Shown here: piece after piece, positions 10,915-16,879 of the stretch
How positions within the stretch are numbered: position 1 is the stretch's first letter
Layout of the letters: each line of letters begins with the position of its first letter
Source of the DNA: a virus
DNA: 33,657 nt
Virus record (IMG/VR): IMGVR_UViG_3300043464_000774
Location: 1 to 33,657 of that record
Direction: 5' to 3' (one strand)
Notes under the pieces: model-generated
Database searches by the model: none
Told to the model about the DNA's origin: nothing
What the model saw: the letters and a program-made list of their open reading frames with translations, nothing else
Program-made: the position numbers and the translations under genes

Positions 10915-11105
10915 GAGTGGGCGGCCTCCAGGGCTTCGAGCTTCTTGGCTACCCGCACCAAACGATTGCAAAGATCTTCAATGGTGTCGGCGCTCCACTC
11001 GTGAAACTTCCTGCTGTCGTCGTCGATGTCGTCTTTCCACATCTGGATTCGGAGCATCTGCACGAGCACGACGGGAGCCGGGGGCAAGTACGGGTTGTCA
11101 GCCAT
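10911..11105 (-). CDS. Small hypothetical protein
   Basis: A 64-residue protein. MADNPYLPPAPVVLVQMLRI is followed by an acidic stretch with KDDIDDDSRKFHEW and a helical end (LCNRLVRVAKKLEALEA) that could form a coiled coil. It overlaps the LexA-like gene by 8 bp and the membrane protein by 4 bp, matching operon spacing. No family is recognised. Confidence 0.55.
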   Translation of the reverse strand: MADNPYLPPAPVVLVQMLRIQMWKDDIDDDSRKFHEWSADTIEDLCNRLVRVAKKLEALEAAHS

Positions 11106-11352
11106 TGGCCACCTCCACCGGGCGAAGGGTGCGGGCCTGGCCGGGCTGCCACTGCACCCAGCCCTTGCGGCGCAGAGACCAGACGTGATTCACCACGGCG
11201 TTCTTGTGAATCCCGAAGTGGTTGGCGATGTCGTCAATGGCCACGCAGTAGCCGTTGCGGTCGCGGAAGTCGGTGATGTACTCAAAGACTTCACGCTGGC
11301 GGTCGGTCAGCTGGGGGCGTTCGGTGGCGGTGGCGGTTGCTGTTTCGGTCAT
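11098..11352 (-). CDS. Stand-alone LexA-type winged-helix DNA-binding domain
   Basis: An 84-residue protein that aligns by eye with only the N-terminal domain of LexA: LTDRQREVFEYITDF (helix 1), IDDIANHFGIHKNAVVNHV (helix-turn-helix), LRRKGWVQWQPGQARTLRP (wing). The S24 Ser-Lys autoproteolysis domain is absent, so it cannot be RecA-cleaved. It could be a phage repressor or an antagonist at LexA-like sites. The start overlaps the upstream gene by 4 bp. Confidence 0.75.
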   Translation of the reverse strand: MTETATATATERPQLTDRQREVFEYITDFRDRNGYCVAIDDIANHFGIHKNAVVNHVWSLRRKGWVQWQPGQARTLRPVEVANG

Positions 11353-13621: not shown

Positions 13622-14047
13622 TTACGCCTCTCCCGCTTGGCTGCCGCTCCCGTCTGCCGGGCTTCCCCCTGCGGCTGGGGCTGTTTCTTCTTTCGCATCT
13701 GCGTCCAGCTGTCGTGCCACGGCATCGGCGTCTTCCTTCCAAGTTGCTGCGTCTTCCACTGTGTTCCTGGCTGCGAGCCACGCGCTCATCAGCCTGTTGG
13801 TCCATCTGCCGTCCCACTCCTCGCCATCCAAGGCGTCGATCAACAGCACGAGGCGGGCGTGTATCCACTTCGCTTTCCTGGCGATCTGCGCGTCGGTCAG
13901 CATGGGCAGCGGGTCCGGGCCTCGACGGCCCGTAGGCTTCGGGGCGGCACGTCGCCGCCGCTCGAAGACCTCGGGCTGCCGGGCCTCGAACTCGTTCCAC
14001 TCGCCAGTGCTCGGCGGGTGGCCCTCGTTGATGCCACGTTCGCTCAT
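13622..14047 (-). CDS. Hypothetical protein downstream of RecT
   Basis: A 141-residue protein coupled to RecT by a 4-bp ATGA overlap. The N-terminus is basic and proline-rich (RRRRAAPKPTGRRGPDPLP). A helical middle (DAQIARKAKWIHARLVLLID, then WDGRWTNRLMSAWLAARNT) and a low-complexity acidic/Gly-Ser C-terminus follow. No nuclease motif is visible, so it is not an obvious RecE or lambda-Exo partner. Linkage suggests a recombination accessory. Confidence 0.55.
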   Translation of the reverse strand: MSERGINEGHPPSTGEWNEFEARQPEVFERRRRAAPKPTGRRGPDPLPMLTDAQIARKAKWIHARLVLLIDALDGEEWDGRWTNRLMSAWLAARNTVEDAATWKEDADAVARQLDADAKEETAPAAGGSPADGSGSQAGEA

Positions 14048-14904
14048 CGGGCGTTGGCCTCCGCTTCGACCTCTTGCCCGTCGAAGTGCTCGGTGCCGTT
14101 GTCGATCGCGTTCGCCTTGTCGAGGATCGACTTGGCGAGCTCGTCACGCTCGAACTTGGTCAGAGCCCCTTCGCCAAATCGCTCCTCGACCTTGCGGCGG
14201 ATGTCGTCGAGTCGGTCCACGGTCGTCGCCCTGGCGATCGAACGCTCGGCCTTTTCGTAGACGCTCGCTTCCGGTGCCGAAGCAGCCAGCGGCTGTGCCA
14301 CTTGGGCGGTGGCTTTTGCAGGCTCCTGCGCACGAGCCACAGCCGCCGGTGCTTCGGGGTAGTCTTGGGCCTCCTCTGCCGTGATGAGGCCACGCAGGGC
14401 GTCAGCGAAGGCGTTGCGAAGTGCAAAGCCCCGAGCACGTAGGGCCAGCATCCGCTCGGGGTACTGGCTCCACGGGCCGCTCTTGCCAGCCAGCCCGGCC
14501 CGCTTGGCGTCGGCCATCGAAAACCGGCTGATCGTCGGGGCCGGATAGCCACGACGCTTGGCCTCGCACACGGCGGTCAGGTTGTCGCCCTGGCCCTCGG
14601 TGTATTCCTTGACGTATTCGCAGACGGGGCTGCTCTGCACCAAGGCCAGGGCAGCGTCGCCCCAGATCGTCGGCCTGCCGTTGATGACGGCGATGCTCTG
14701 GAGCGATTGCATCGGGCTCAGGCCGACTTCGCTCCCGTGCTGGATCGCCAGCATGCAGGACTCGGGCTTGCCCCGGAAATCCTTGGGGGCGAACTCAGAC
14801 GCCGCCACCATCTTCGAGAAGCGGAAGGCGTCGTCGAATGATTGAAGAGCCAATCCTCGGGCCTGCGTGTTGTCTGCGGTCAGTGCTAGTCCTGTCGTTC
14901 CCAT
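14044..14904 (-). CDS. recT: RecT-family single-strand annealing protein
   Basis: A 286-residue protein. Core motifs are LAIQHGSEVGLSPMQSLQSI, INGRPTIWGDAALALV, a FSMADAKRAGLAGKSGPW stretch and GPWSQYPERMLALRARGF, ending with a DALRGLITAEEAQDYP segment; these are characteristic of RecT-type annealases. The C-terminal part (200-286) is a linker plus charged helical region. It would anneal homologous single strands for phage recombination. No partner exonuclease is seen nearby. The ATG at 14904 is preferred to the longer open frame to 15429: AAAGGGA lies 8 nt upstream and homology begins shortly after. Confidence 0.8.
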   Translation of the reverse strand: MGTTGLALTADNTQARGLALQSFDDAFRFSKMVAASEFAPKDFRGKPESCMLAIQHGSEVGLSPMQSLQSIAVINGRPTIWGDAALALVQSSPVCEYVKEYTEGQGDNLTAVCEAKRRGYPAPTISRFSMADAKRAGLAGKSGPWSQYPERMLALRARGFALRNAFADALRGLITAEEAQDYPEAPAAVARAQEPAKATAQVAQPLAASAPEASVYEKAERSIARATTVDRLDDIRRKVEERFGEGALTKFERDELAKSILDKANAIDNGTEHFDGQEVEAEANAR

Positions 14905-15007: not shown

Positions 15008-15229
15008 TCAGTGCGTGATGTCTTTGAGCGGCACGCGAAGCCAGCCGCCGCCCACGTCGATGGCAACCAAGTGGCCGTCGATCCACTCGACGCGCCCACT
15101 CCACGCTTTGCCGCTCGTGGTGCCGCTGATGAAGTCGCCCACGGCGGGCTCGACAGGGGCAGCGGTGTGGTCAGCCATCCCAGCGACGGCGGCCAAATAC
15201 TCGTTGTGATGGGGGTCGGTACTGAACAT
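15008..15229 (-). CDS. Small hypothetical early protein
   Basis: A 73-residue protein and the first gene behind a strong predicted promoter (15263-15290), so probably expressed early. The C-terminal part (VGDFISGTTSGKAWSGRVEW, then IDGHLVAIDVGGGWLRVPLK) reads as a small SH3/KOW-like beta-barrel by pattern. The ATG at 15229 is used; the longer frame would need a TTG at 15283 that lies upstream of the -10 box. Function unknown. Confidence 0.55.
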   Translation of the reverse strand: MFSTDPHHNEYLAAVAGMADHTAAPVEPAVGDFISGTTSGKAWSGRVEWIDGHLVAIDVGGGWLRVPLKDITH

Positions 15230-15262: not shown

Positions 15263-15290
15263 AATGTATCGACGAGTGAACAACTGTCAA
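15263..15290 (-). promoter_or_regulatory. Predicted sigma70 promoter of the early operon
   Basis: On the minus strand TTGACA (15290-15285) is followed by a 16-bp spacer and TACATT (15268-15263). It directs leftward transcription into the 73-residue gene and RecT. Operator copy A lies about 27 bp upstream of the -35 box. The -35 is perfect; the -10 matches at 4 of 6. Confidence 0.6.
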
Positions 15291-15316: not shown

Positions 15317-15333
15317 CCGGTAGCGGTAGTTCC
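15317..15333 (-). promoter_or_regulatory. Operator-like motif copy A
   Basis: Minus-strand GGAACTACCGCTACCGG. It matches copy B at 15 of 17 positions, and its ACTACCGCTAcCGG core recurs in copy C. It lies just downstream of the 47-residue gene and upstream of the early promoter. A likely regulator binding site. Confidence 0.55.
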
Positions 15334-15334
15334 A

Positions 15335-15478
15335 TCAACCAAGAAAAACACTGGCGAACGTCGCCAGGAGTTCGATGCTGTCGTGGACCGCACGGGCCAG
15401 CTTGGAGTCACATCCAAGTTCTTGACCAAGGCGAACCAGCACGAGGCAGCGAATCATTTCATCCCAATCGATCTTCAT
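15335..15478 (-). CDS. Very small early protein (47 residues)
   Basis: Start ATG at 15478 has AGGAG 7 nt upstream. The product MKIDWDEMIRCLVLVRLGQE continues into LGCDSKLARAVHDSIELLAT, apparently two helices, and ends in FASVFLG. It is directly behind a promoter that contains operator copy B, so it is probably a regulated early product. Size and placement would suit a small regulator or anti-repressor; no family is recognised. Confidence 0.5.
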   Translation of the reverse strand: MKIDWDEMIRCLVLVRLGQELGCDSKLARAVHDSIELLATFASVFLG

Positions 15479-15506
15479 GGCAGCACTCCTTTGCGTGCGT
15501 GGGGGT

Positions 15507-15535
15507 ACTGTACGGTATCGGTAGTTCCCTGTCCA
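15507..15535 (-). promoter_or_regulatory. Predicted promoter with embedded operator copy B
   Basis: Minus-strand TGGACA (15535-15530), 17-bp spacer, TACAGT (15512-15507), driving the 47-residue gene. The operator-like motif GGAACTACCGATACCGT (15528-15512) fills the spacer, so a bound protein would block RNA polymerase. Each box is close to consensus (5/6 and 4/6). Confidence 0.55.
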
Positions 15536-15578
15536 GCCCAACACAAAAAGATTTTTTGGGGCCGAGAAATCCCGAGAT

Positions 15579-15818
15579 TCAGGGCTTCTTTCGCGGGCTG
15601 GCCTTCTTGGTGGCCCGCTTCCCGATCGACCGGGCGGTGAGGTTGGCCTTGGCTTCCTTGGCCGCAGCCAGGGGGATCAGCCAGACCCGCTCGCCAAATC
15701 GCTTGCCTTCGAGGCGGCCGGATCGCAGGAGCATCCGCACCCAGCCGTCCGTGCAGCCCATGAATTCCACGGCCTCCGCGACCGTGAGGTATTCGCCGCC
15801 ATCGACTTTGTGGGCCAT
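15579..15818 (-). CDS. Excisionase-like helix-turn-helix protein
   Basis: A 79-residue protein. A MerR/HTH_17-type domain covers residues 9-55 (EYLTVAEAVEFMGCTDGWVR, then MLLRSGRLEGKRFGERVWLI), followed by a lysine-rich tail (KRATKKASPRKKP). Proteins of this type act as excisionases or as small repressors. It is divergent from the integrase and its promoter contains operator copy C, consistent with a lysogeny/excision switch. ATG at 15818 has GGAGG 10 nt upstream; ATG 15827, 9 nt further upstream, is also possible. Confidence 0.7.
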   Translation of the reverse strand: MAHKVDGGEYLTVAEAVEFMGCTDGWVRMLLRSGRLEGKRFGERVWLIPLAAAKEAKANLTARSIGKRATKKASPRKKP

Positions 15819-15834
15819 TCCAACCATGCCTCCG

Positions 15835-15862
15835 ATACTACCGCTAGCGGTGGCGGTGTCAA
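15835..15862 (-). promoter_or_regulatory. Predicted promoter with embedded operator copy C
   Basis: Minus-strand TTGACA (15862-15857), 16-bp spacer, TAGTAT (15840-15835), upstream of the excisionase-like gene. A perfect 12-bp palindrome ACCGCTAGCGGT (15840-15851) sits in the spacer and belongs to the same motif as copies A and B, in inverted orientation. The start of transcription would be near 15828, almost at the upstream ATG. Confidence 0.55.
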
Positions 15863-15902: not shown

Positions 15903-15988
15903 TAGGCTTCCCTGCGTCACGGATTCAAGTGGAGGATAGGGGAACGAAACTGATGTACACTAGTGGTCGTTACCCGCAGGAGGAGCCA

Positions 15989-16879
15989 ATGATGTTACTT
16001 CGAGATGTTCTTGAGAACGAGTACGGTCCTTTGCGGTCGCTGAAACCACAGGCGCGCCGCCAATACCAGCTCACGCTCACCAGATGGAGCGAGACGCTGG
16101 GCCGCGAGCCGACGATGGACGACCTCCAGCCGCTCGTCGTCCAGGCGTTCCTCTCGGCCCGCCGCACCAAGGTGTCCGCCGCCTCGGTTCGGAAGGATCG
16201 CACCCACGTCTGCTGCCTCTGGTCCTACTGTGCCAAGGTTCGCCGCACCCGGTCTGACGGCCAACTGCTGGAGTTTCCCACCGTCGCCCCGGTGCGAGCC
16301 CCTACGAGGCTTCCACGGGCCTACCGGGTGGCTGATGTCTCGGCCTTGGTCCGCACGGCCCTCGGCTACCCATCGCCCGTCTGCGGGCTTCCTGGGGGCT
16401 TGTACTACGCCAGCATGATCCGCATGTGCTGGGAGACGGCATCCCGCATCGGGGCCGTGAGGCAGCTGCGGTGGGGCGAAGTGGACCTCGAAGGGCGGGC
16501 GGTCATCTTCCTGGCCGAAACCACGAAGACCGGCGACCGGGATCTGCGGCGGGCGATCTCGCCCGAGTTGGCCGGGTGGCTGAAGCAGATCGAGCGGAAG
16601 CCGAATGACCTCGTTTTTCCTTGGGATCGCGACCCGACGAGCCTGTGGTACGAGTTCAAGAAGATCTGCCGGGTGGCGGGGGTGCAGCCGAGGGGATTCC
16701 ACGCGCTCCGCAAGAGTAACGCCAGTTATGTGACGGCCGCCGCCGGGGTCGGGGAAGCCGCCAGCGTCTGCGGTCACAAGGATTCCAAAGTCACCATCGA
16801 TCACTACATCGACGAGACGATCGCGAAGCCGAAGCACACGGCACTCGACTTCCTGCCGCCGCTCGACCTAAGCGAATGA
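15989..16879 (+). CDS. int: Tyrosine-type site-specific integrase
   Basis: A 296-residue recombinase, the only + strand gene. A SAM-like core-binding domain spans about 1-95 (RRQYQLTLTRWSETLGREPT). The catalytic domain has the complete residue set: Arg153 in ETASRIGAVRQL, Lys180 in ETTKTGDRDL, His238 and Arg241 in GFHALRKSNASY, His263 in CGHKDSKV and the nucleophile Tyr273 in IDHYID. It would integrate phage DNA at an attachment site. The ATG at 15989 is chosen for AGGAGG 5 nt upstream; the frame is open back to a GTG at 15929. Length is somewhat short for the family, but all catalytic parts are present. Confidence 0.92.
   Translation: MMLLRDVLENEYGPLRSLKPQARRQYQLTLTRWSETLGREPTMDDLQPLVVQAFLSARRTKVSAASVRKDRTHVCCLWSYCAKVRRTRSDGQLLEFPTVAPVRAPTRLPRAYRVADVSALVRTALGYPSPVCGLPGGLYYASMIRMCWETASRIGAVRQLRWGEVDLEGRAVIFLAETTKTGDRDLRRAISPELAGWLKQIERKPNDLVFPWDRDPTSLWYEFKKICRVAGVQPRGFHALRKSNASYVTAAAGVGEAASVCGHKDSKVTIDHYIDETIAKPKHTALDFLPPLDLSE

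Follow-up and report, generated by a model that had tools for sequence, protein, structure and literature searches.

Descriptions of excisionase-fold proteins usually present them as DNA binders of weak specificity. The operators of Apl, from phage 186, are 6-bp direct repeats placed 10–11 bp apart and bound with weak specificity (PMC7498355). BldC recognizes 9-bp direct repeats in AT-rich DNA, with Arg30 making a bidentate base contact and Lys33 a phosphate contact (PMC5859096), and RdfS autoregulates without a consensus motif (PMC11963761). The excisionase-fold protein described here appears instead to read its operators sharply and to have switched specificity several times, with matching changes in the operators. 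The regulator, its operators and their specificity code, all belonging to uncultured temperate phages, were obtained from sequence alone.

The window, by which we mean the whole stretch of DNA analyzed, is the 33,657-bp IMG/VR virus record IMGVR_UViG_3300043464_000774, encoding a tail fibre, major head protein, RecT, exonuclease and tyrosine integrase. Nearly all genes are carried on the minus strand, the exception being the integrase. The virus is an uncultured temperate phage with a lysogeny-control region beside the integrase, and belongs to a widespread group. No cultured phage encoded a recognizable relative of the helix-turn-helix (HTH) protein, a search of 50,697 phage records having found none, and the capsid protein had only distant matches to cultured phages, at up to ≈25% identity. 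The sole cellular match in a host search was a 3.3-kb contig of a MAG titled "Proteobacteria bacterium"; since 96 other genomes of that MAG's order gave no match, this is possibly a stray phage contig. The genes referred to in the following are:

11098–11352: LexA-like protein of 84 aa, with a LexA DNA-binding domain
14044–14904, minus strand: RecT-like annealing protein (PHROG 561, E 3.4e-48; Pfam RecT)
15008–15229, minus strand: small ORF of 73 aa, behind promoter P3
15335–15478, minus strand: ORF of 47 aa (MKIDWD...) between sites B and A, with no family match; similar ORFs in relatives stop just before A
15579–15818, minus strand: HTH_17/excisionase-type protein of 79 aa, the putative binder; alternative start at 15827; specificity residues M29 and R32
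15989–16879, plus strand: tyrosine integrase (Pfam; PHROG 1, E 5.6e-30), divergent from the HTH gene, an adjacency kept in relatives

A preliminary description of this DNA had proposed three copies of a 17-bp operator motif in the lysogeny-control region, two of them within promoter spacers. All three sites, including the core and palindrome of C, were present where they had been placed:

15317–15333, minus strand: site A, GGAACTACCGCTACCGG, with core ACTACCGCTA at 15330–15321; single in the window
15512–15528, minus strand: site B, GGAACTACCGATACCGT, with core ACTACCGATA at 15525–15516, within the early-promoter spacer behind the HTH gene
15838–15854: site C, of dyad type and within the promoter of the HTH gene itself, with core ACTACCGCTA at 15837–15846 (plus strand) and palindrome ACCGCTAGCGGT at 15840–15851
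15263–15290, minus strand: third promoter, P3, TTGACA-16-TACATT, ahead of the small gene and recT
15507–15535, minus strand: early promoter B, TGGACA-17-TACAGT (TTGACG in most relatives), holding B in its spacer
15545–15557, minus strand: A-tract AAAAAATCTTTTT upstream of the B −35 element, resembling an UP element and kept in relatives
15835–15862, minus strand: HTH gene promoter, TTGACA-16-TAGTAT, holding C in its spacer

When the 17-mer was allowed up to three mismatches, it had exactly three matches in the window, with 0.18 expected, and three were reached in 0 of 100 shuffles; as the pattern was derived from the sites themselves, this count is post hoc on its own and the independent test lies in the relatives. 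The scan of the 33,657-bp record found no copies other than A, B and C, in agreement with the preliminary description. Between 14800 and 16200 three sigma-70-like promoters were predicted (0.2 expected), and these were exactly the ones previously named, with B and C inside the spacers at 15535–15507 and 15862–15835 and A ending 26 bp before the P3 −35 element. The idea of three equal copies was rejected: C is weaker, with three mismatches and the opposite orientation, it is a dyad-type site in relatives, and it tracks the specificity class only loosely. The reading of the sites as operators of a lysogeny-control region is strongly supported, by their conservation in promoters next to a divergent integrase and by their covariation with the HTH protein.

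A search with the 79-aa HTH protein identified 28 IMG/VR loci, and with an alignment of 15 relatives as the query, 129 loci were found, of which 80 were kept. The layout was common to the 28, and then to the 80 (of 129), listed HTH relatives, recurring in dozens of IMG/VR phages down to ≈50% identity in the HTH protein, and the integrase was divergent from the HTH gene in 76 of the 79 loci with an integrase match. A scan of 2.9 million contigs for the DNA pattern AACTACCGATANNNTAYAGTA alone returned 43 loci, every one (43/43) with the HTH gene; the three DNA-pattern scans gave 43, 85 and 72 stretches. Twelve of the 243 records had no HTH gene, ten from the later pattern scans, most of which look truncated, and two (L035, L036) from an integrase search. 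Near copies of the window (L004, L005, L006) sit in the sets of relatives, and counting was therefore restricted to HTH proteins, or HTH/B combinations, that differ from one another. Some phages (L023, 1650–1899; L156, 5386–5749, on the oriented strand) had a further, weaker HTH relative close to the first.

The order behind the HTH stop codon in the relatives was an A-tract (AAAAAATCTTTT-like) followed by TTGACGCCYA-ACTACCGATA-NNC-TAYAGT, in which the operator core makes up the spacer. Because part of the core was fixed in the regular expression that collected the B sites, conservation is overstated by the 100% columns of the B alignment; the HTH-based listing of promoter and A-tract is free of that bias. 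B was a single site. A usually came as two tandem copies with 22-bp spacing, of which only one is present in the window, with none at +22. A followed small ORFs at a variable distance of 214–2,414 bp from the HTH stop, and in 63 of 75 cases its start lay 4–5 bp past a stop codon. Close site pairs were 22 bp apart in 49 of 55, the others being at 28 bp (three) or 6 bp (three). Within A, 43 of 75 cases had a TAG at one constant offset, against 1 and 2 cases at other offsets, making CTACCG-N5-CNNTAG a dyad with a weak right half. A was also considered as a promoter and rejected: the TTGACG that precedes it in some relatives stems from the stop-codon context, and the −10 is poor. The interval from B to A (15334–15511 in the window) is a variable small-ORF cassette with fixed borders, and possibly holds early accessory genes, for example for counter-defence. 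The ATG of the HTH gene lies 7 nt past the −10 of its promoter in the window (15827–15840, minus strand), and ≈6–10 nt past it in most relatives; being so close behind the −10, it suggests that the HTH transcript may be leaderless.

Another conserved element, TAGTGTACAGCGTTTCTAGT, was observed in the integrase–HTH gap, ≈45 bp ahead of the HTH promoter (15939–15962, minus strand, in the window). It was also found upstream of the HTH promoter in L009, L030, L061, L154 and L203, and some relatives repeat a version of it, TGTACGCCGTTTCAAGTCCCC, between A and P3. The element may serve as an integrase arm site or as a further operator.

The identity of the binder is best addressed by the covariation between operator and protein. 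With the core written A-C-T-N4-N5-C-G, the covarying positions are bases 4 and 5 and residues 29 and 32. The covariation was first spotted by eye; in a later scan that treated every column of the HTH alignment alike, residue 32 ranked top for base 5 (92% of the entropy) and residue 29 top for base 4 (80%). Base 5 was C if and only if residue 32 was Arg, in 76 of 76 distinct loci (74 loci plus L166 and L172; 73/73 in an earlier set), and Gly32, replaced by Cys32 in one case, paired with A5 or G5 with no exception. Of the Gly32 proteins, those with A29 or M29 were paired with AA, those with H29 or T29 with GA. This pairing of the Gly32 proteins had no exception at the tandem A sites, which showed AC in 25 pairs from Arg32 phages (one having GC in the second copy), GA in 23 pairs with His/Thr29 and Gly32, and AA in the single pair with Ala29 and Gly32; with Met29 and Gly32, both B and A had AA. 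The two tandem copies agreed in 50 of 51 pairs, and A matched the helix class in all. Residue 24 (D/E) was also considered as the determinant, and was weaker than residue 32, ACTACCG being kept in phages with E24 and R32. In our alignment, made through the shared HTH_17 pattern, residue 29 falls on BldC Arg30 and residue 32 on Lys33.

On a tree with the three trait residues masked, the Arg/Gly residue changed at least four times and base 5 likewise changed four times. The four switches are likely to be independent as judged from these sequences, although this falls short of statistical proof because the HTH tree is short and strong branch support extends to just one of the four. When independent traits were simulated on the best tree, 0 of 20,000 runs matched all tips; simulations on bootstrap trees were left out, their branch lengths having looked unscaled. 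In a few phages B departed from A (L080, ACTAGCG; L195, ACTAACG; L171, mixed), and L172 had the B site ACTTCCG together with H29/R32 and G25S. These four possibly represent further operator classes or transitional states.

Exact copies of AACTACCGMTA occurred two to three times per record, always on one strand and all in this region, in 24 of 24 Arg-class records. The sequence was absent from all eight (8/8) Gly-class records, and the backwards control gave four in 32 records. Within the 4.5 kb behind the HTH gene, sites were oriented forward in 214 cases vs. 4 in reverse. A random scatter of the motif, which had been named as the outcome that would overturn the proposal, is thus excluded. That the sites are chance repeats or an inherited, functionless relic would fit the three-site count, post hoc as it is, but we give this next to no credence in view of the fixed positions, the single strand, the 22-bp tandem spacing and the covariation. 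Rather, A, B and C form a real and non-random set of predicted operators, conserved and with a readable specificity code.

Site C fitted this code less tightly. Several phages (L017, L052, L074, L125, L131) had a perfect CTACCG-N5-CGGTAG at C, and the CTACCG half was found there in 18 of 30 Arg-class vs. 4 of 29 Gly-class phages, a loose following of class as would be expected for a weaker site.

Two candidate binders had been put forward, the HTH protein (15579–15818) and the LexA-like protein (11098–11352), and the covariation favors the former. The LexA-like protein does have a LexA DNA-binding domain, and its relatives, winged-HTH proteins lacking a protease domain, were present in 23 of 32 records. 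That it binds these sites is nevertheless very improbable, since the sites covary with the recognition helix of the HTH protein, and no LexA-like protein turned up in 9 of the 32 module-carrying records (fragments). A better candidate target for it is an element of the P3 spacers: those of L011, L013, L023, L028, L104 and L151 carry their own element, TGAACGNNCGTACA (GAAC-N4-GTAC, resembling a LexA box), which is not clearly visible in the P3 spacer of the window (15263–15290). As this GAAC element is conserved and different from the operators, another regulator, perhaps the LexA-like protein, may act at P3.

The HTH protein matched Pfam HTH_17 with an E-value of 4.7e-5 and 24 bits, against a cut-off of 27, and PHROG 1840 (excisionase) at 2e-5. 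Its predicted structure had a pLDDT of 73 overall and 79–85 over residues 11–60, and Foldseek gave the model a probability of 1.00 for BldC and Pukovnik Xis (TMt 0.75–0.80), but at E-values of 0.02–0.06; the model also resembled RacA and RdfS. The modelled winged-HTH fold groups the protein with BldC, Xis and RdfS, the sequence match remaining below the Pfam cut-off.

This kinship raises the question of whether the protein is mainly a recombination directionality factor (RDF) that, like Apl or Cox, also represses early promoters, with a separate, unseen protein keeping lysogeny. The best family matches are indeed excisionases (PHROG 1840), as many fold homologues are, the divergent integrase adjoins, and Apl is both an RDF and a regulator encoded at a similar gene position (PMC7498355). 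We find this reading doubtful all the same, because Apl and other RDFs use direct repeats 10–11 bp apart with little specificity, and RdfS lacks a consensus, whereas the sites found here are single, keep about ten bases fixed and covary strictly; direct repeats about one helix turn apart were not found, none of the 55 close pairs being spaced at 9–12 bp.

MerR regulators bind between the −35 and −10 elements, and the promoters they activate have long spacers of 19–20 bp. Given its MerR-like fold, the HTH protein might thus distort the DNA from within the spacer and turn the B promoter on. The spacers here are 16–17 bp, however, which is already optimal, and such activation is unlikely.

There is a good case from these comparisons that the HTH_17 protein is a sequence-specific, probably autoregulated repressor of the early region that reads its own operators. 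Based on the covariation of operator bases with the recognition helix, it very probably binds A and B, the helix reading ACTACCGMTA. By occupying B, which lies between the −35 and −10, it would block the early promoter behind its own gene; such repression, by filling of the spacer, is likely in view of the site position and normal spacer length. Binding at C would limit its own synthesis. Site A separates the end of the B operon from the recT promoter, and binding there might limit transcription into or from the recT operon; tandem A sites, two helix turns apart, would probably be bound cooperatively. Whether A controls P3 or read-through from B is the least certain part, as the distance from A to P3 varies from about 12 to 110 bp among relatives.

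A more speculative extension is that this excisionase-fold protein is the immunity repressor, with immunity groups set by the two-residue code (29, 32) and tandem A sites acting as transcription roadblocks. One feature of immunity repressors is present, in that B and C overlap the early promoter and the HTH gene's own promoter in relatives. We regard this as tentative; if true, Arg32 (AC), Ala/Met29 with Gly32 (AA) and His/Thr29 with Gly32 (GA) would define the groups. The code is predictive and testable as to which phages should share regulation or immunity.

A limited literature search found no description of such a module; several systems share parts of it. Like Apl of phage 186 and Cox of P2, which act both as excisionases and as lysis–lysogeny regulators, the protein is a small winged-HTH product of an early-region gene in integrase-carrying phages, and would similarly repress early promoters (PMC7498355). 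Unlike with Apl, the sites are single with a core of ≈10 bp, or tandems at 22 bp, and they sort by base into three classes that are coupled with the recognition helix. BldC and RdfS, of the HTH_17/MerR-like winged-HTH type, share its fold according to the model, and the residue aligned with BldC Arg30 covaries here (PMC5859096, PMC11963761); in contrast to both, the motif is sharp and contains GC, and C and A have dyad character. A correlation study of MerR-family proteins and DNA likewise linked recognition-helix residues to operator bases, although those proteins are cellular metal regulators with effector and coiled-coil domains (PMC5045206). The Cluster A mycobacteriophage repressors (L5, Bxb1) resemble the present system in their asymmetric sites with an orientation fixed relative to transcription, in having one site in the early promoter, and in a specificity that drifts together with the repressor (PMC6550527, PMC9283540). 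They differ in having up to about 30 stoperators per genome, vs. 2–4 sites here, where the 2–3 exact sites per record were confined to this region rather than spread genome-wide, and their fold is unrelated to HTH_17.
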